From positions 496,001-560,000 of the forward strand of contig NZ_JAPYRE010000002.1 of assembly GCF_029936995.1 (NCBI RefSeq): 64,000 nt of DNA, in the 5' to 3' direction. Source of the stretch: Henriciella sp. GTDB lineage: Bacteria; Pseudomonadota; Alphaproteobacteria; Caulobacterales; Hyphomonadaceae. Below are positions 8,610 to 41,714 of the stretch, one piece after another; the stretch's first letter is position 1, and every line of letters begins with the position of its first letter. The notes under the pieces are model-generated. The model worked only from the letters and a program-made list of their open reading frames with translations. It was not told where the DNA came from and did no database searches. The position numbers and the translations under genes are program-made.

Positions 8610-10250
8610 TCAGCCTTCCGTGAGCGGATCAGCCGGCAGCAGCTTTTGAAGTGTTTCCAGGCGGTCGGCTTCCCCGGCGGGCTTGTCCCAGCGGATGCGA
8701 TTGATACGTGGAAAGCGCATGGCGAGGCCGGACTTGTGACGCGGGCTGCGTTGCAGACCCTCGAAGGCGATCTCGAGCACCAGCCCCTTATCCGCTGTGG
8801 CGGTCACGGCCCTGACGGGTCCGAACCGGTCGATCGTGTTTTCACGGACGAATTTGTCGAGTTGTTTCAGCTCCTCGTCGGTGAACCCGAAATAGGCCTT
8901 GCCGACAGGTGTCAGCTCATCGCTCTCTTCGCCCGCGCGCCAGACCCCGAAAGTGAAATCCGAGTGGAAACTCGACCTGCGCCCATGCCCGCGCTGAGCG
9001 TAAAGCAGCACCGCGTCGACCAGAAACGGATCCTGCTTCCACTTGTACCATGGGCCTGTCGGTCGACCGGCCTGATAGACGCTGTCCCAGCGTTTCAGCA
9101 TCAGCCCTTCGATTTCAGGTGCTGGCGGCCTGTTGCGGGCTTCCTCAAGCGCTTCAAGCGTTGTGATGGGCACCAGCGGCGACAGGTCTATTCGCTCGCT
9201 GGCGAGACGTCCGACAAAACCTTCAAGCCGCCTGCGCCGTTCGCGGAAAGGCAGCGGGCGCAGGTCTTCATCGCCTTCCACCAGAAGGTCATAGGCGCGG
9301 ATGAAAGCCGGACGGGTCTCCATCTGTTTCTTCGTGACCGTCTTGCGATTGAGACGTTGCTGGAGCTCATTGAAAGGAGCGACCTCGCCATTCGGCGCGC
9401 GGATCAGGAGCTCGCCATCGATGGCGGCCTCGAAATCCATGCCTGCCAGAACATCGGGGAAGGTATGGGAGATGTCGTCGCCGGTTCGGGTATAGATACG
9501 ACGCGTACCTTTCTCTGAGACCGCCTGAACGCGGATGCCGTCATACTTCCATTCCGCTGCAAAGACAGCCGGGTCGATCATGGCAGGATCAATCGCATCC
9601 GGATCATCCCGCTTGTCCTTTGTCACCAGTGGATGTGCCAGCATGACGGGCCTGTACGGTGCGGCAATGTCAGGGGATGGCTTGTCCGCCTTGCCTTCAA
9701 GCCAGTCGAAGAGGCTCTCATAGGGCGCTTCCAGCCCGTGCCAGATTTCCTCGATTTCTGCAGGCGCGATGCCTCCCATCTCGGCAAGGGCCACTTTCGT
9801 CAGACGGGCAGACACGCCGATCCGCAGGCCGCCAGTGACCATCTTGATCAGCGCCCAGCGGCCTTTCGGATCGAGCTGGTCGAGCCATCCGGCCACCAGC
9901 TTCTCGCCTTCTGCGCGGGTGGCGCCAAGCAGTGTCTCGACGACATCCTCTATGGGCGGGGTCCGGTTGGCGCCATGCGACCCCGGCCAGATCAGGCTGG
10001 CAGTTTCTGCGAGGTCCCCGACATAATCATAGGAGAGACGGAACAGTTCATGATCAGTGCGCGCCTCGACCAGCTTGCGGATCGTGCCGGCTTTCACGGC
10101 TGGCAGGTCCAGCTCTCCCGTCAGAACTGCGAGCGCCCATCCGCGCGCAGGTGTGTCCTGGGTCGAGAAATAGTTCACCAGAAGCGCGATCTTGCCATTG
10201 CGTGACGGGGTCAGTATCAGCCGCTCAAGAAGGTCGGAGAAAGCCTGCAT
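8610..10250 (-). CDS. ATP-dependent DNA ligase of the Lhr/Exo/Lig repair set (546 aa)
   Basis: Motif I, EWKYDGIRVQ, holds the lysine that takes up AMP, in the middle of the protein near residue 230. EGLMLKRWDS (motif IV) and WYKWKQDP (motif V) follow, then an OB-fold. The N-terminal 200 residues are the helical DNA-binding domain of the larger ligases. Start and upstream exonuclease stop overlap as TGATG, so the two are translationally coupled. In other bacteria this ligase is clustered with an MBL exonuclease and an Lhr-Core helicase and linked to DNA damage response; both partners are nearby here. Confidence 0.93.
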   Translation of the reverse strand: MQAFSDLLERLILTPSRNGKIALLVNYFSTQDTPARGWALAVLTGELDLPAVKAGTIRKLVEARTDHELFRLSYDYVGDLAETASLIWPGSHGANRTPPIEDVVETLLGATRAEGEKLVAGWLDQLDPKGRWALIKMVTGGLRIGVSARLTKVALAEMGGIAPAEIEEIWHGLEAPYESLFDWLEGKADKPSPDIAAPYRPVMLAHPLVTKDKRDDPDAIDPAMIDPAVFAAEWKYDGIRVQAVSEKGTRRIYTRTGDDISHTFPDVLAGMDFEAAIDGELLIRAPNGEVAPFNELQQRLNRKTVTKKQMETRPAFIRAYDLLVEGDEDLRPLPFRERRRRLEGFVGRLASERIDLSPLVPITTLEALEEARNRPPAPEIEGLMLKRWDSVYQAGRPTGPWYKWKQDPFLVDAVLLYAQRGHGRRSSFHSDFTFGVWRAGEESDELTPVGKAYFGFTDEELKQLDKFVRENTIDRFGPVRAVTATADKGLVLEIAFEGLQRSPRHKSGLAMRFPRINRIRWDKPAGEADRLETLQKLLPADPLTEG

Positions 10251-11278
10251 CAGGTATCTTCCTCCTCATAACCGACCAGCCGGAGCGGCCTTGCCTTGCG
10301 CCCTTCCAACTCAGCCCAGCGGACCAGCGCGTCCTCGCGGCCGTGCGTAATCCAGAGTTCTTCCGGATCGACTTCGCGCACCGTGTCAGTCAACTCGTCC
10401 CAGTCGGCATGATCGGAGATGATCAGCGGCAGCTCGACGCCGGACTGTTTGGCCCGCTGGCGTATGCGCATCCAGCCACTGGCGAAGCAGGGCAAGGGGT
10501 CCGGGAAGCGCCTACCCCACTTGTCATGGAAGGAAGATGGCGGGCCGAGCACGATCTTGCCGCGAAACCGCTCCTGTGCGCCACGTTCCGATGTCTCCAG
10601 CGTGGCGGGCGCCAGTGGCCCAAGCTCAACGCCATGATCCTCATAGAGCTCGCATAGTTTCTCAAGCGCGCCGTGGATGTAGAGGGTTTCGTCATAACCG
10701 GCTTCACGCAGATGCTTGATGACGCGCTGGGCCTTGCCGAGCGCATAGACGCCGACAAGGTGCGTTCGCTCTGGCAGCATCTCCACGCTGTCGAGTAGCT
10801 TGGCGATCTCGCCTTCAGTCTCCGGGTGCTTGAAAACCGGCAGGCCGAATGTGGCTTCCGAGATAAAAACATGCGTTTCCGGCACAGGCTCGAATGCCTG
10901 GCAGGTCGGGTCGCGCCGGCGTTTATAGTCCCCGGTGCAGACCATGCGCAGGCCTTTCCACTCAACGACGGCCTGCGCTGATCCCAGCACATGCCCGGCT
11001 GGGGAAAACCAGACGGTCACACCGTTTACCTCGACCGCTTCGCCATATTCCAGGGCCTGCGTCGTTCCGGCGAAGTCCTCGCCATAGCGGGACGCCATGA
11101 TGGCGAGCGTCTCGGGTGTGGCCAGGACATGGTCGTGGCCCGCCCGTGCATGATCTGCATGGCCATGGGTAACCACTGCCCTGTCCACTGCGCCACGGAC
11201 GGGGTCGATATAGAAGTCCCCGGGTGGGCAGTAGAGGCCCTTCGGGGTTGGTTTCAGCAGCAGGTCAGGCCGGATCAT
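10250..11278 (-). CDS. Ligase-associated MBL-fold DNA exonuclease (342 aa)
   Basis: This is a metallo-beta-lactamase/beta-CASP type nuclease. THGHADHARAGHD is the HxHxDH metal motif and GDYKRRRDPTCQAFEP gives the aspartate and the family-specific region; LIISDHADWDEL and ITHGRED supply the late histidines. It normally pairs with the ATP-dependent ligase, to which it is coupled through TGATG. The long reading frame runs to 11455 and would overlap the divergent serine hydrolase; homology begins at MIRPDLLLKPTPKGLYCPPG, so the start at 11278 is preferred although its ribosome site is weak. Confidence 0.9.
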   Translation of the reverse strand: MIRPDLLLKPTPKGLYCPPGDFYIDPVRGAVDRAVVTHGHADHARAGHDHVLATPETLAIMASRYGEDFAGTTQALEYGEAVEVNGVTVWFSPAGHVLGSAQAVVEWKGLRMVCTGDYKRRRDPTCQAFEPVPETHVFISEATFGLPVFKHPETEGEIAKLLDSVEMLPERTHLVGVYALGKAQRVIKHLREAGYDETLYIHGALEKLCELYEDHGVELGPLAPATLETSERGAQERFRGKIVLGPPSSFHDKWGRRFPDPLPCFASGWMRIRQRAKQSGVELPLIISDHADWDELTDTVREVDPEELWITHGREDALVRWAELEGRKARPLRLVGYEEEDT

Positions 11279-11397
11279 CTGTCTGATATAGGACGGCTCG
11301 TGCTTTTTCGACTGCCTTGTTTCTGCCGCTTCTGCATGTGACAGACTGATGTCTTTTACGCCGGAAACGTATCCGGGGGAAGTTAAGGGAGCTTGAT

Positions 11398-12873
11398 TTG
11401 CAACGTATTTTTGCTTGCGCACTGGCCGCAGCGCTTCTCCTGCCGACGACGGCAACCGCCCAGGAAGGCGGTGAGACCGAAATCATGAAGCGCGCGCTCG
11501 CGGCAGGTTACAAGGCGCTTTTCACCTGTTCGGCCACCTTCACGGCAGACCAGTCCCGCTCAGAGATAGAAGCCAATGAACTTGATGGCATCTACCTTGA
11601 TTACCGTGAGCCTATGCGCAGCGTCTCAGAAGCCAATATCCGGGACCGGACGCGTACGGTCGCTGTGCGTTATGCACGCGGGGAGCCACCACGGATTGCA
11701 GCCTGGCGCTCGGGATTTGGGTGTTCGCTTCTTCCCATCGGTGCGGACCCGCAATCGGCTGACCGGCTGCCGCGTTTCAGTGGTGGGGTCGAACGCAAGA
11801 CCAGCGATGCGTCGACCGCGATCGGTGCGAATGTGAGCCTGGTCGAAGCGTCGGCTTACCAGAGACGTCTGGAACCGGCTGTCAGCTTTGCCTTTGATGG
11901 CAGCACATATGGCCAGGACACCCGCACCAGCGCCGTCGTCGTGGTGAAGGACGGTCAGTTGATAACAGAGCGCTATGCGCGGGGCATTGATGCCACAACG
12001 CCCCAGCGCACATGGTCAGTCGCAAAATCCCTCTCGGCGACGATCATCGGTGCGGCCCTGGAGCAGGGCATGATGGAACTCGACTATCCGGCTCTTGTCC
12101 GTAACTGGACGATGGGGGGCGATCCGCGCCGCGAGATTACGCTCAGGGATGTCCTTCAGATGGCCAGCGGACTTGATTCCGGTGAGGCTGGTAACCGGAC
12201 GGACCGGACCTATTTTGGCGGCGCGCGTGTTACGGATACGGCCATCGTAAACCCGCTGGAGGTCAGCCCCGGCACACGGTTCAAGTATGCCAACTACGAC
12301 ACCCTGTCAGCCATGCGTGGTCTTCGGGAGGCGATGGATGATGACCGTCTCTACTGGCGCTTTCCCTATGAGGCCGTTCTCTGGAAGATCGGCGCCCTGA
12401 ACACGACGCTGGAGACCGACTGGGCCGGGGACTTTGTCTCGTCGAGCCAGGTCTGGATGACCGCGCGCGACATGGCCCGGCTTGGCCAGCTCTATATCCA
12501 GGACGGCATGTGGGGAGATGAGCGCATCCTTCAGAAAGGCTGGGTCGACTTCGTGTCAACGCCGGGGCCAGCCCAACCGGACCGGAGTGATCCGGACTCT
12601 TTTGGGTATGGTGGAAGCTTCTGGCTGCTCGACCGGTTTGACGGTATCCCCAGTGATACTTTTGCCGGGATCGGCAATCGTGGACAGTATCTCGTCATCG
12701 TCCCGTCGCGGGGGCTCGTCATCGTGCGGCGCGGCTATGATACCGCTGAAGGTGGACGCTTCGACATTGTCTCGTTCACACGCGATGTGATCTCGGCAAT
12801 AGATTTTGGCGATACCGACCGTCTGGACGCCCAGATGCGCGCCTCCGAAGCCGAGGCTGAGTATAACGACTAG
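11398..12873 (+). CDS. Secreted serine hydrolase, beta-lactamase/class C fold (491 aa)
   Basis: A signal peptide (MQRIFACALAAALLLP, cleavage after TATAQ) directs it to the periplasm. TWSVAKSLSATIIG carries the S-x-x-K nucleophile motif and FKYANYDT the Y-x-N motif of class C beta-lactamases and DD-peptidase-like esterases. The start is TTG at 11398, preceded by TAAGGGAG at the right distance; no better ATG is in frame. It diverges from the exonuclease and lies 42 bases before the Lhr-Core helicase, separating two genes that are normally neighbours. The substrate is unknown; esterase or peptidase are both possible. Confidence 0.85.
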   Translation: MQRIFACALAAALLLPTTATAQEGGETEIMKRALAAGYKALFTCSATFTADQSRSEIEANELDGIYLDYREPMRSVSEANIRDRTRTVAVRYARGEPPRIAAWRSGFGCSLLPIGADPQSADRLPRFSGGVERKTSDASTAIGANVSLVEASAYQRRLEPAVSFAFDGSTYGQDTRTSAVVVVKDGQLITERYARGIDATTPQRTWSVAKSLSATIIGAALEQGMMELDYPALVRNWTMGGDPRREITLRDVLQMASGLDSGEAGNRTDRTYFGGARVTDTAIVNPLEVSPGTRFKYANYDTLSAMRGLREAMDDDRLYWRFPYEAVLWKIGALNTTLETDWAGDFVSSSQVWMTARDMARLGQLYIQDGMWGDERILQKGWVDFVSTPGPAQPDRSDPDSFGYGGSFWLLDRFDGIPSDTFAGIGNRGQYLVIVPSRGLVIVRRGYDTAEGGRFDIVSFTRDVISAIDFGDTDRLDAQMRASEAEAEYND

Positions 12874-12915: not shown

Positions 12916-15549
12916 ATGCCGGATGCTGCCCCGCCTGAACAGACACTGCCGGACCGGTTCCGGGACTGGTTTGAGGGCCGTGGATGGACGCCGCGTGCCC
13001 ACCAGCTCGACCTGACGGCGACGGCCCTGCAGGGTGATAGTGCGCTACTCATCGCCCCGACGGGCGGAGGCAAGACGCTGGCAGGCTTTCTGGCAAGCCT
13101 GATCGAACTCTCCGGCGAAAATGAAACAGCAGCCCTGAGCCCAATCCATCGCGAAGGCACTCGCCGGAGCGGGGATCAAACACAGGATCACCTGAGCCCA
13201 ATCCATCGCGAAGGCACTCGCCAGAGCGGGGACCAGACGAAAAAACGCCCGGCCCTGCACACTCTCTATATCTCGCCCCTGAAAGCGCTGGCGACCGATG
13301 TTGAGCGTAACCTCAACACACCGGTCGCCGAGATGGGCCTCGATACCCGGATCGAGTCACGTACGGGGGATACGCCACAATCCAAACGGCAGCGCCAGCG
13401 CGCTAATCCGCCGGACATCATGCTCACGACACCGGAGCAACTCGCCCTCTTCATAGCCTCAGAACATGCCGCTGATTTCTTCGCAGATCTGAAATGCGTC
13501 ATTATCGACGAAATTCACGCCATAGCGGCGTCCAAGCGTGGTGACCTGCTCTCGCTCGGGCTGGCGACACTGGCTGAATGGGCACCAGCCTGTCGCTTTA
13601 TCGGCCTGTCAGCAACAGTGCGTGACCCGGCGCAGCTCGCCGGCTGGCTGCCGGAGCGGGCGGGCCGAGAAACGAAACTTCTCCGTGCCGAGGGCGGGAT
13701 AAGCGCCGATATCGGCATCATGGTCTCGCGCGAGCGAATTCCCTGGTCGGGCCATTCGGGACGTTTTGCCGTGCCGGAGGTGTACGAAGCGATCAGGGCC
13801 AGCGACATGGCGCTCGTCTTCGTAAATACGCGCAGCCAGGCCGAACTTCTCTTCCAGGAATTGTGGCGGGTGAACGAGGATGCCCTGCCCATTGCGCTTC
13901 ACCACGGCTCACTGGCGCGTGAGCAGCGCCGTAAGGTCGAGGCGGCCATGGCAAAGGGGGTGCTCAAGGGTGTAGTCTGCACCTCAACGCTCGATCTTGG
14001 TATCGACTGGGGCGGGGTCGACCTCGTGATCCAGATGGGCGCGCCCAAGGGGGCCGCGCGCCTTCTCCAGCGCATCGGGCGGGCCAATCACCGCATGGAT
14101 GAGGCAAGCCGCGCGCTTCTGGTGCCGACGAACCGGTTCGAGATTCTTGAGTGCAGGGCCGCTGAGGCGGCCGTCGAAGCCGGTGAGATTGATGGCGAGC
14201 CCATGCGTACAGGGGCGCTCGATGTGCTTGCCCAGCACATCATGGGCCGGGCCTGCGGAGAAGGGTTCGAACTGGACGCCCTCTATGACGAAATACGGCG
14301 CGCTGCGCCATATGCCGACCTTGACTGGGAAACCTATGAACGCGTCGTCGATCTCGTCGCCACCGGCGGCTATGCGCTGACCACTTATGACCGTTTCCAC
14401 CGGATTGTGAAACGCGATGGGCTCTGGCGCGTACGCACGCCACGTGATGCCCAGCAGCACAGGATGAATGTCGGCGCGATCGTTGAAGCGCAACTGATGA
14501 ATGTTCGCCTGGCGAGCTTTGCCGGAAAGAAAGGCCAGCCCGCAGGCGGCCAGGATACAGCATCGGTGCGCGGAGAGCAGCGTGCGATCCGGGCCGGACG
14601 CAAGCTGGGAGAGATCGAGGAATATTTCATTTCGACTCTCACGCCGGGCGACACATTTCTCTTCGCTGGCGAAATCCTTCGCTTCTTGGGTGTTTCGGAG
14701 CTCGATGTGCTCGTCACACGCGCGAAAACCGACAAGCCCGCCATTCCCTCCTATAATGGCGGCAAGTTTCCGCTCACCACCTTCCTTGCTGAGCGTGTGC
14801 GCCAGATGATCCACGACCCCGATGAGTGGAGCGGTCTGCCAGACCAGGTACGCGAATGGTTCGAGGTGCAGCGCGAGAAGTCGGACATTCCACCCCCGGA
14901 TCATCTGCTTGTCGAAACCTTTCCACGCGCGGACCGGCATTACCTCGTCACCTATCCTTTCGAGGGACGCCTGGCCCACCAGACGCTCGGCATGCTGCTG
15001 ACGCGGCGTCTTGAACGGGCAGGCGCCAAGCCGCTCGGTTTCGTCGCATCGGAATATGCCCTGGCCGTCTGGGCGATGGACGATCTGTCTGGCATCGACA
15101 TGGATGAACTGTTCCACCCGGACATGCTGGGCGACGACCTGGAGGCCTGGCTGGACGAGAGTCCGCTGATGAAGCGCACCTTTGCCCAGTGCGCGCAGAT
15201 CTCGGGCATGATCGCCCGACGCCTGCCCGGCAAGGAGAAGACAGGCCGTCAGGTCACATTCTCGACCGACCTCATCTATGACGTACTCAGGAGCCATGAG
15301 CCCGATCACATCCTGCTTCAGGCTGCCCGTCAGGATGCGGCCACCGGCCTGCTCGATATACGCCGCCTGTCTGACATGCTGACCCGTATACGCGGCAGGA
15401 TTGACCATCGCGCACTTGAGCGGATCAGCCCTTTTGCCGTGCCGGTCATGCTGGAGGTCGGCCGCGAACCTGTGAATTCTGAAAGCGCGGCCGAGGCGAT
15501 CATGCGGGAGGCGGAATCGGACCTGATCCGCGAGGCAATGGCGCGTTAG
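12916..15549 (+). CDS. Ligase-associated DEXH helicase, Lhr-Core type, with in-frame repeat insertion (877 aa)
   Basis: This is a 3'-5' superfamily 2 helicase of the Lhr-Core family that works with the ligase and exonuclease ending at 8610 and 10250. Motifs: IAPTGGGKTLAG (Walker A, about residue 46), YISPLKALATDVERNL, VIIDEIHAIAASKRGD (DEIH, about 197), GLSATVRDP, then QRIGRANHRM in the second RecA domain, and a winged-helix/Lhr C-terminal part. Between Walker A and YISPLKALA there are about 40 extra residues made of two copies of LSPIHREGTRRSGDQT, encoded by a tandem 57-base repeat. Relatives have only a short linker there. The frame stays open, so the protein is probably functional. Its 3' end overlaps the convergent acyl-CoA synthetase by 4 bases. 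Confidence 0.93.
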   Translation: MPDAAPPEQTLPDRFRDWFEGRGWTPRAHQLDLTATALQGDSALLIAPTGGGKTLAGFLASLIELSGENETAALSPIHREGTRRSGDQTQDHLSPIHREGTRQSGDQTKKRPALHTLYISPLKALATDVERNLNTPVAEMGLDTRIESRTGDTPQSKRQRQRANPPDIMLTTPEQLALFIASEHAADFFADLKCVIIDEIHAIAASKRGDLLSLGLATLAEWAPACRFIGLSATVRDPAQLAGWLPERAGRETKLLRAEGGISADIGIMVSRERIPWSGHSGRFAVPEVYEAIRASDMALVFVNTRSQAELLFQELWRVNEDALPIALHHGSLAREQRRKVEAAMAKGVLKGVVCTSTLDLGIDWGGVDLVIQMGAPKGAARLLQRIGRANHRMDEASRALLVPTNRFEILECRAAEAAVEAGEIDGEPMRTGALDVLAQHIMGRACGEGFELDALYDEIRRAAPYADLDWETYERVVDLVATGGYALTTYDRFHRIVKRDGLWRVRTPRDAQQHRMNVGAIVEAQLMNVRLASFAGKKGQPAGGQDTASVRGEQRAIRAGRKLGEIEEYFISTLTPGDTFLFAGEILRFLGVSELDVLVTRAKTDKPAIPSYNGGKFPLTTFLAERVRQMIHDPDEWSGLPDQVREWFEVQREKSDIPPPDHLLVETFPRADRHYLVTYPFEGRLAHQTLGMLLTRRLERAGAKPLGFVASEYALAVWAMDDLSGIDMDELFHPDMLGDDLEAWLDESPLMKRTFAQCAQISGMIARRLPGKEKTGRQVTFSTDLIYDVLRSHEPDHILLQAARQDAATGLLDIRRLSDMLTRIRGRIDHRALERISPFAVPVMLEVGREPVNSESAAEAIMREAESDLIREAMAR
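13134..13247 (+). repeat. Two tandem 57-base hairpin repeats inside the helicase gene
   Basis: Units start at 13134 and 13191, each opening CCTGAGCCCAATCCATCGCG and differing at only a few positions over the first 45 bases. The period of 57 bases is 19 codons, so the reading frame is kept. Each unit has nested complementary arms, ATCC/GGAT, CGC/GCG and GGC/GCC in the first copy. A third copy lies at 34328 outside any gene and a decayed one at 34625. Confidence 0.85.
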
Positions 15550-33828: not shown

Positions 33829-34097
33829 GCCCTCGCATATCCTCGGACCAGAAAAATCCATCCCACCCCTTTACCTGCCACCCATACTCCCAGCCATCCC
33901 ATCGTCAGACAGGGCGGTCCGGACCGGCCGGGTGGCGTGTGGGGTGTGAGAGTGACCGATGCTGCGGGCAGGGATGTAACGGCCCTGCTACAAGCGGTCC
34001 GGCGCCATGTGGTTCGCTAGGGACGCCGGGGCAGCCCCCGGTGATTACTGTTTTCGGGCGGGCCGGAGAGGGACACCTTGCCGGCCAACACCTCTCA

Positions 34098-34152
34098 CGG
34101 CCTTCTCCACCTTCAATCGATCCAGTGGATCGATTGAAGGTGGAGAAGGCCG
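34098..34152. repeat. 55-base perfect palindrome
   Basis: Two 27-base arms (34098-34124 and 34126-34152) are exact reverse complements around a single G at 34125. The central part reads AATCGATCCAGTGGATCGAT. No T-run follows on either side. Confidence 0.9.
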
Positions 34153-34199: not shown

Positions 34200-34224
34200 G
34201 AAAACGCTCCACTGGAGCGTTTTC
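34200..34224. repeat. 25-base perfect palindrome
   Basis: GAAAACGCTCCA and TGGAGCGTTTTC pair perfectly around one C at 34212. It lies 48 bases after the larger palindrome and has the same one-base-centre layout. Confidence 0.85.
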
Positions 34225-34321: not shown

Positions 34322-34327
34322 CAGGGG

Positions 34328-34378
34328 CAGCCCTGAGCCCGATCCATCGCGAAGTGAAGCGCAGCGGGGATCAAACCA
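34328..34378 (+). repeat. Intergenic copy of the helicase hairpin repeat
   Basis: GCAGCCCTGAGCCC is shared exactly with the first helicase copy, followed by ATCCATCGCGAAG and then AGCGGGGATCAAAC. The middle differs (TGAAGCGC in place of GCACTCGCCGG). GATCC and GGATC at its ends are complementary, with CGC/GCG inside, so the fold is kept while the loop varies. Confidence 0.8.
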
Positions 34379-34448
34379 AAATCCCGTGATGGTTTTCGCG
34401 GTGGCGCAAACCGGGTAGGACATGGACACGCTATCCAGAGGAGCCACC

Positions 34449-34895
34449 ATGCCCGCCGCCCCGTTTCATCTCGCCTTTCCCGTCCATGACCTTTCGGCCG
34501 CGCGGAAGTTCTATGGCGGACTGCTGGGCTGCCCGGAAGGGCGCTCGAGCGAGCACTGGGTGGATTTCGATTTCTATGGCCACCAGATCGTCGCGCATCT
34601 CGCGCCGGAACAGTGTCCGGATCAGGAGGCATCCCGGCGTGAAGCGGAAAGGGGATCAACCAGCCAGGTCGACGGAAAAAGCGTGCCGGTGCGCCATTTC
34701 GGTCTCGTCCTCGACATGGGTGCGTGGCAGGTGCTCGCCGAACGTCTCACCGGCCAGGTGGATTTTGTGATCGAGCCCTATATCCGTTTCCAGGGCGAGC
34801 CGGGCGAGCAGGCCACCATGTTCTTCACCGATCCGTCGGGAAATGCCATTGAGATCAAGGCGTTCGCCGACATGGATCAGCTCTTCGCGAAGTAG
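34449..34895 (+). CDS. VOC-family (glyoxalase-like) protein with a probable repeat-derived insert (148 aa)
   Basis: FHLAFPVHDLSAARKFYGGL opens a single vicinal-oxygen-chelate domain; VDFDFYGHQIVAHL, VPVRHFGLVLDMGAWQVLAE and ATMFFTDPSGNAIEIKAF complete it, with the usual metal-side histidines and glutamate. The middle segment QEASRREAERGSTSQ is longer than in typical relatives, which pass almost directly to VDG-x-x-VPVRHFG. Its DNA (34625-34662) aligns with the helicase/intergenic repeat. GAGGAG precedes the ATG at 34449. Substrate unknown. Confidence 0.85.
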   Translation: MPAAPFHLAFPVHDLSAARKFYGGLLGCPEGRSSEHWVDFDFYGHQIVAHLAPEQCPDQEASRREAERGSTSQVDGKSVPVRHFGLVLDMGAWQVLAERLTGQVDFVIEPYIRFQGEPGEQATMFFTDPSGNAIEIKAFADMDQLFAK

Positions 34896-41192: not shown

Positions 41193-41714
41193 CTAGCCGC
41201 CGAGCGCGGCACTGACCTCTTCACGACGATTCTCATCAAGCACGCCGCGGACATGCATGATGATCTGGCCATCGGGGCTGATTACGAAGGTTTCCGGTAC
41301 GCCCGTCAGGCCGAAGTCCAGCCCACCCTGGCCGTCACGGTCGACGCCGATCTTTTCGAAAGGGTTCCCGAGTTCCGCGAGGAATTCGCGTGTTGCTTCA
41401 GGGGCATCCTTGTAGGCAAGGCCATAGACTTGGCCTGGATGCTTCTGCGCGAGCCATGTGATGTCGCCATGCTCGGCCCTGCAGGGGCCGCACCAGCTGG
41501 CAAACAGGTTGACCATGACTGGCCTGTCGCCCGGCGGCGGCGCAAAGCTGATGGACTGCGAACTGTCTTGCAGCAGGGGGAAAACCCTGTCCGGCGCCAC
41601 GCGGTCTGCCTTGGCGGTGAAGCTTTCCTCAGCGGGGCGTATCAACTGGATGCCCCCCAGTATGCCGAGCCCGGCAAGCGCGGCCAGCGGCAGTATGGCC
41701 TGCCAGCGCTTCAT
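41193..41714 (-). CDS. ccmG: Cytochrome c maturation thiol:disulfide oxidoreductase (173 aa)
   Basis: An N-terminal membrane anchor (WQAILPLAALAGLGILGGIQ) and a periplasmic thioredoxin fold with active site ASWCGPCRAEHG (W-C-G-P-C) and the cis-proline loop GLTGVPETFVISPDG. CcmG/DsbE keeps apocytochrome c cysteines reduced for haem attachment. The ATG overlaps the ccmD stop (ATGA). Confidence 0.93.
   Translation of the reverse strand: MKRWQAILPLAALAGLGILGGIQLIRPAEESFTAKADRVAPDRVFPLLQDSSQSISFAPPPGDRPVMVNLFASWCGPCRAEHGDITWLAQKHPGQVYGLAYKDAPEATREFLAELGNPFEKIGVDRDGQGGLDFGLTGVPETFVISPDGQIIMHVRGVLDENRREEVSAALGG

Follow-up and report, generated by a model that had tools for sequence, protein, structure and literature searches.

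The window (the whole stretch of 64,000 nucleotides that was analyzed) belongs to a 3.40 Mb Henriciella genome and contains a DNA repair cluster with an Lhr-like helicase, in whose reading frame two copies of a short palindromic repeat, termed F1, were found. A third copy and a decayed fourth lie at a VOC/glyoxalase gene. R1 denotes the F1 covariance model. The features were as follows:

8610..10250, minus strand: cisplatin damage response ATP-dependent DNA ligase (TIGR04120; 780 bits, cut-off 400)
10250..11455, minus strand: ligase-associated DNA damage response exonuclease (TIGR04122; 460 bits, cut-off 325)
12916..15549, plus strand: ligase-associated DEXH-box (Lhr-like) helicase gene, 877 aa (TIGR04121; Pfam domains; 5v9x fold match)
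13129..13181, plus strand: F1 copy 1, in frame (AALSPIHREGTRRSGDQT); R1 in the source genome, 64.2 bits, E 1.2e-16, the copy being one of the 38 sequences used to build R1
13186..13238, plus strand: F1 copy 2, in frame (LSPIHREGTRQSGDQT), tandem to copy 1; R1 in the source genome, 42.5 bits, E 6.7e-10, also one of those 38 sequences
34327..34376, plus strand: F1 copy 3, between genes, upstream of the VOC gene; R1, 74.5 bits, E 8.2e-20, and found earlier by pattern and DNA search
34422..34895, plus strand: VOC/glyoxalase-fold protein gene with a decayed F1 (PF00903; 26.7 bits, cut-off 20.6)
34630..34659, plus strand: decayed F1 copy, in frame in the VOC/glyoxalase gene (SRREAERGS); local alignment to F1

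The 12916-15549 reading frame scored 1093.6 bits against the TIGR04121 profile (curated cut-off 850), its Pfam domains were DEAD, Helicase_C, WH_Lhr and DEAD_assoc, and the best PDB fold match of its predicted structure was 5v9x, M. smegmatis Lhr. The TIGR04121 neighborhood, with the TIGR04120 ligase and the TIGR04122 exonuclease, was present in the window. Family and fold are thus common to the window helicase, TIGR04121 helicases and M. smegmatis Lhr, but a 38-codon insert of the window helicase was missing from most TIGR04121 relatives. The nearest named relatives were Henriciella species, then Hyphomonas. With three insertion sites excluded, dN/dS against five relatives was 0.037, 0.038, 0.048, 0.050 and 0.055 (rough values, as dS was near saturation); by this sequence measure, the helicase outside the insertion sites is under strong purifying selection.

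The insert lies after Walker A (APTGGGKT) and before YISPLKALA, where two tandem palindromic F1 copies of ~50 bp each (13129-13238) add the 38 in-frame codons. A first-pass annotation of this DNA had described two near-identical 57-base units. Direct repeats were indeed found in frame at an offset of 57 nt (13134-13190 and 13191-13247), with 94% identity over the first 48 nt, but their final 9 nt were dissimilar, which makes the true unit an element of ~48-53 nt with a spacer and not 57 near-identical bases. The nested self-complementary arms ascribed to each unit were clear on single-sequence folding of unit 1 (z = -2.63, 4/200 shuffles equally good), and weak and unremarkable for unit 2 (z = -1.49, 16/200 shuffles). 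A motif scan of the window gave 3 sites against 0.13 expected, with three sites reached in 0/100 shuffles; this rules out a chance match of the window copies, and checks chance only, as the motif was picked from those same copies. An Rfam scan of 13050-13300 returned just one sub-threshold match (E 0.41; 18.8 bits, gathering score 49). A structure prediction had been proposed for the insert, and in the AlphaFold2 model of the helicase (mean pLDDT 78.9) residues 71-109 were of very low confidence. These residues and residues 538-555, two of the three insertion sites, had pLDDT < 50, and the third site (~250) was placed between a helix and a strand. The F1 insert is presumably disordered, or its low pLDDT may reflect missing homologues rather than disorder.

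F1 copies are ~40-55 nt long with the consensus GCAGCCCTGAGCCCGATCCATCGCG-(variable middle)-AGCGGGGATCAAA, short forms of ~40 nt being without the middle. From 82 pattern rows, 13 were dropped as non-elements (ordinary gene sequence by reading), leaving 69 copies, and R1 was built from alignment A2 of 38 long-form copies among them, the window's included and short forms omitted. For the source genome, R1 gave 7 matches at E<1e-4, with 2 in the helicase and 5 between genes (placement by reading), one of the latter just before the apparent start of trpB (gene name by reading). A pattern search of the same genome found 5 F1 sites, and the reversed-pattern control was 0 here and in two further F1 pattern searches. 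The first-pass annotation had placed the same family outside genes at 34.3 kb; this copy is real (34327-34376, R1 E 8.2e-20), and a corresponding copy was found upstream of the VOC gene of a relative, G009. The unit would have been ordinary protein sequence had it occurred nowhere else in the genome, and further copies were present, between genes by reading. Across the genus (29 genomes, grouped as by the search tool), R1 at E<=1e-6 gave at least 98 matches in 21 genomes, ranging from 0-19 per genome with most in H. mobilis (G019), these counts being lower bounds as up to 150 candidates per genome were scored. When 200 genomes of the order were searched by pattern, F1 turned up in 23, all from the window's family (23/41; other families 0/159). 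Tandem copies occurred in H. mobilis at a spacing of 44-46 nt, mostly between genes by reading, and the helicase tandem pair resembles them.

To assess the stem, arm pairs were compared within copies. Both arms had changed together in some of them (GTTCC/GGAAC in two copies, GCTCC/GGAGC, GGCCC/GGGCC). The exact complement of a copy's own left arm was present in 42 of the 69 copies (2000 shuffles: mean 29.9, maximum 38), including only 5 of the 20 whose left arm departs from the consensus; neither window helicase copy (left arm AATCC) held an exact complement. Covariation was unsupported on the plain MAFFT alignment (476/500 shuffles reached the observed score), where the extra base of GGTGACC forms looks misaligned. 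On a model-fitted alignment of 103 matches, 34 double-change cells were counted against 7.1 in shuffled data, and 0/500 shuffles were as high. As the MAFFT alignment seems misplaced at that extra base and the model-fitted alignment leans to its own structure, the arm-complement count is the less dependent test of the stem. At the level of DNA sequence, F1 is established as a dispersed repeat with a predicted hairpin.

Of the at least 98 genus matches, 14 were intragenic and all of these were in frame: 3 in the helicase, 3 in VOC, 2 in ThiC and 6 in a hypothetical protein family. Frames were judged by length and by eye, using conserved flanks rather than gene calling, and 14 may be an undercount. 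A match to the VOC/glyoxalase protein of 34422-34895 was found in 29/29 genus genomes, with a clear insert in the same loop in the source genome, G005, G006, G012, G019 and G022, and a short insert, possibly a relic, in G009. The decayed copy of the window was not detected by R1 at E<=10 on the source genome; in local alignment to F1, 0/1000 shuffles were as good for two of three references and 42/1000 for the short form. When the helicase tree was used in place of a species tree, with five of the six genomes placed on it, the VOC inserts required a minimum of five changes, counting losses and gains. In the VOC gene of G012 (L254) and G006 (L259) the insert was a longer in-frame composite of an F1 tag and a second hairpin around GCGCCAANGGCGC, and similar long composite F1 forms were seen between genes in G012.

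In-frame F1 was found at the same linker of ThiC in G012 and G010; both proteins score as ThiC (NCBIfam), each being ~20 residues longer than the profile stretch matched. The hypothetical family carried F1 in G018, in G019 (two paralogues, one with two tandem copies) and in G009 (two paralogues), and a Pfam search with two of its members gave no match. The 14 intragenic copies were read in an AALSPIHRE-like frame (helicase, part of the hypothetical family) or a SPEPDPSRS-like frame (VOC, ThiC and the rest), and none was seen to use a reverse open frame. In long forms, the forward open frames were more hydrophilic (hydropathy -0.88 to -2.39) than the reverse (-0.45 to 0.72). For the short form the AALSPIHRE frame scored -0.03 and one reverse frame -0.59, and as this breaks the pattern, hydropathy alone does not explain frame use.

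Linker residues at the helicase insertion site, counted through RP, numbered 6-13 in 82 of 95 distinct orthologue rows and 16-47 in 12 rows, the remaining row being truncated. This agrees with the first-pass annotation, which had about 40 residues added between Walker A and YISPLKALA where relatives have a short linker. Had orthologues of distant genera shared these residues, they would have been ordinary protein sequence; the segment was absent from most of the 95 rows, and the H. aquimarina orthologue is naturally without it. The 12 long rows were the window twice (L034 is the same gene), L035, L036, L075, L100 and L125, the last five with repeat-derived DNA in their linkers, and five distant rows with long linkers, presumably for other reasons (L117, L124, L129, L131, L132). 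A common empty form is nine residues before RP (SERPKSNSG), and in the window SGENETA before and KK after the 38 codons likewise make nine. Henriciella mobilis had a single F1 copy at the same place as the window pair. An unrelated GC-rich hairpin, CTCCCCCG-N4-CGGGGGAG, occupied the F1 site in Henriciella sp. PW1 (L036), a Hyphomonas (L075), L100 and L125, and an exact-pattern search for it in the source genome found none. Further relatives had inserts at residues ~250 and ~548, either GC hairpins or a third kind of repeat (TPLPxGARG when translated). Serial GC-rich palindromes of more than one kind were observed at these two sites in L053, L054, L055, L091, L099, L100, L104 and L125, and L100 and L125 had inserts at all three sites.

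A quick helicase tree was built from 61 of the 95 distinct rows with insertion columns removed; 19/58 inner branches were open. L034, being the window's own gene, was left out, as were L101 and L121 (truncated) and most of the distant outgroups. On this tree, site 71 needed at least 4 changes when scored by presence and 5 when scored by type; site 250 needed at least 6 and site 548 at least 2. Across 49 named loci, with the window excluded and the third repeat kind uncounted, 18 GC hairpins were inside the helicase gene (126 kb) vs. 2 in flanking DNA (371 kb). Both flanking hairpins sit just beyond the helicase gene end, and the 18 are not 18 independent events, as they come from 9 loci only. 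For F1, the same loci had one copy inside the helicase gene and one outside.

A profile search for Y1 (RAYT) transposase found none in the source genome (G000); across the genus, 3/29 genomes had a protein over the cut-off and 26/29 had no match. RAYT-driven REP was therefore rejected as a class for F1 in the source genome. A scan within ~1.5 kb on each side of the Y1 genes of three relatives found no F1. As an F1 copy in G009 lies ~1.8 kb from a Y1 gene, a RAYT link may exist somewhere in the clade. An F1 copy, a VOC gene and a Y1 transposase-like gene were observed within ~3 kb of each other in that genome (contig C81, 36765-38923). With respect to MITEs, F1 has hairpin arms, and by eye no consistent target-site duplication was seen at the helicase and VOC insertion sites; a 3-nt GAC at both insert ends was present in G005 only (by eye). 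From its distribution, we infer that F1 is mobile.

The sources for the Rickettsia palindromic elements (RPEs) are reportedly Ogata et al. 2000 and 2002. In the available parts of two papers (PMC2229807, PMC3767692), RPEs are palindromic repeats of 100-150 bp that occur intergenically and, within Rickettsia genes, in frame, with Wolbachia also named. The same excerpts describe different groups (RPE-4, RPE-6 and RPE-7) at or near the same place of one gene (PMC3767692), and a guanylate kinase that is active with an RPE insert (PMC2229807). F1 is likewise a palindrome with intergenic copies as well as in-frame copies in conserved genes, but its hosts are Henriciella relatives rather than Rickettsia or Wolbachia, and its copies are ~40-55 nt rather than ~100-150 bp, as compared by description and not by sequence. 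The first-pass annotation's likening of the insert to RPEs thus stands for the way it works, with intergenic and in-frame copies, and fails for membership. Nor is the phenomenon peculiar to Rickettsia: according to excerpts of Di Nocera et al. 2013 (PMC3733652), several free-living bacteria have GTAG/CGTC REPs within their genes, often genes for replication and repair, where dimers or clusters encode 20-30 or 43-82 residues, and different REPs occupy about the same recB site in two Xanthomonas. F1 shares with these a short palindromic stem (without support from the MAFFT alignment). It differs in that neither GTAG nor CGTC is in its consensus, no cognate RAYT (Y1) is in its own genome, and its copy number is low, at 1-19 per positive genome (E<=1e-6, lower bound), whereas REPs usually exceed 100 per genome in the part of PMC2817692 available.

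In the host family of F1, thousands of REPs were counted in Hyphomonas jannaschiana by an extragenic-palindrome tool (PMC12306157); the available part of that paper gives a genome-wide number only and mentions no intragenic inserts. Within the limited selection of literature searched, no palindromic inserts in Hyphomonas or Henriciella genes were found. Given the RPE and REP reports, in-frame palindromic inserts, also in repair genes, are a known kind. Against the literature searched, what appears to be new is the F1 family itself, the host group of its in-frame copies, its untagged, low-copy character, and the Lhr-like helicase and VOC genes as hotspots of several repeat families or forms. 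Protein-coding palindromes would thereby be extended to Hyphomonadaceae by a family without known REP tags. At matching positions of the repair enzyme and of the VOC protein, relatives range naturally from empty sites through one or two copies to inserts of another family. Two questions can thereby be tested directly: are such inserts neutral, and what makes repair genes accumulate them? Annotation and structure prediction can also be led astray by peptides inserted in this way.

The reading we prefer, with a probability of about 0.82, is that the segment is a REP-like palindromic repeat (F1, ~40-55 bp) which entered the helicase gene in this lineage or in a recent ancestor and is now a tandem pair. 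F1 would be a small non-autonomous palindromic element that lands widely. Gene-breaking insertions would be lost, and the intragenic copies retained would be those that keep the frame in exposed loops, where one of two stop-free forward frames would be read into Ser/Pro/Arg/Asp-rich peptides. It is scarcely credible that the segment is instead an ordinary variable linker that grew by codon-level slippage, its match to intergenic DNA being coincidental. Orthologues do differ in how long the linker is and in its sequence, the insert itself is a tandem repeat, and the distant rows L117, L124, L129, L131 and L132 also have long linkers. The match to intergenic copies, however, is one of DNA over ~50 nt and not of peptide alone, VOC and ThiC use another frame of the same element, and an unrelated GC hairpin occupies the same site in other relatives; the intergenic copies and the two frames in use already contradict slippage. 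How F1 spreads is a separate matter. Recombination or gene conversion among existing copies with tandem duplication, rather than transposition, would fit the source genome without Y1 transposase, the low copy number and the tandem H. mobilis copies (spacing 44-46 nt, mostly between genes by reading), but insertions in unrelated genes at sites that are empty in relatives need new integration events, and this route seems doubtful.

The first-pass annotation had left it that the host tolerates or uses the insert. Tolerance is better supported, as the frame is kept, the gene is under purifying selection and the stretch is of low model confidence, and the peptide added by F1 to the helicase is most likely neutral. 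Use would mean that hairpins in the lhr frame regulate the mRNA, or that the loop gained a protein function. The helicase loops were struck repeatedly (at least 4, 6 and 2 changes for sites 71, 250 and 548, by a quick tree in which many forks stayed open) and GC hairpins are more numerous inside lhr than in its flanks (18 in 126 kb vs. 2 in 371 kb, 49 loci), but the 18 stem from 9 loci and the 2 lie just past the gene end. Moreover, sequence, family and copy number vary between species at the same site, many close relatives are without any insert, the model places the sites in loops or in stretches of low confidence, and non-repair genes also carry inserts, which together make host use improbable. 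The same hairpin counts (18 in lhr from 9 loci vs. 2 in threefold more flanking DNA), with the survey excerpted from PMC3733652, suggested that palindromic repeats preferentially land or persist in genes for repair enzymes such as the Lhr-like helicase, since the enzyme or its own-gene hairpins would interact with repeats. We regard this as a long shot, and the hits in VOC, ThiC and the hypothetical family count against it. If it were true, the helicase gene would be a sink whose inserts report on, or tune, hairpin-DNA processing.

Other repeats were observed near F1 copy 3. Two palindromes with perfect arms and a CCAGTGG/CCACTGG centre (34113-34137 and 34200-34224) lie in the same intergenic cluster, and a third, imperfect one of this kind is at 41634 of the window. 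A palindrome of the CCAGTGG/CCACTGG type (AAAATCGATCCAGTGAATCGATTTT) was also seen in frame in a RAYT-like ORF on the minus strand of L190 (G021), and was absent from its relative L189. The stretch before copy 3 (~34020-34095, GGCAGCCCCCGGTGATTACTG...) recurs near-unchanged by eye elsewhere in the source genome (L017, G000:C3 near 627.7 kb), where it also lies beside F1.
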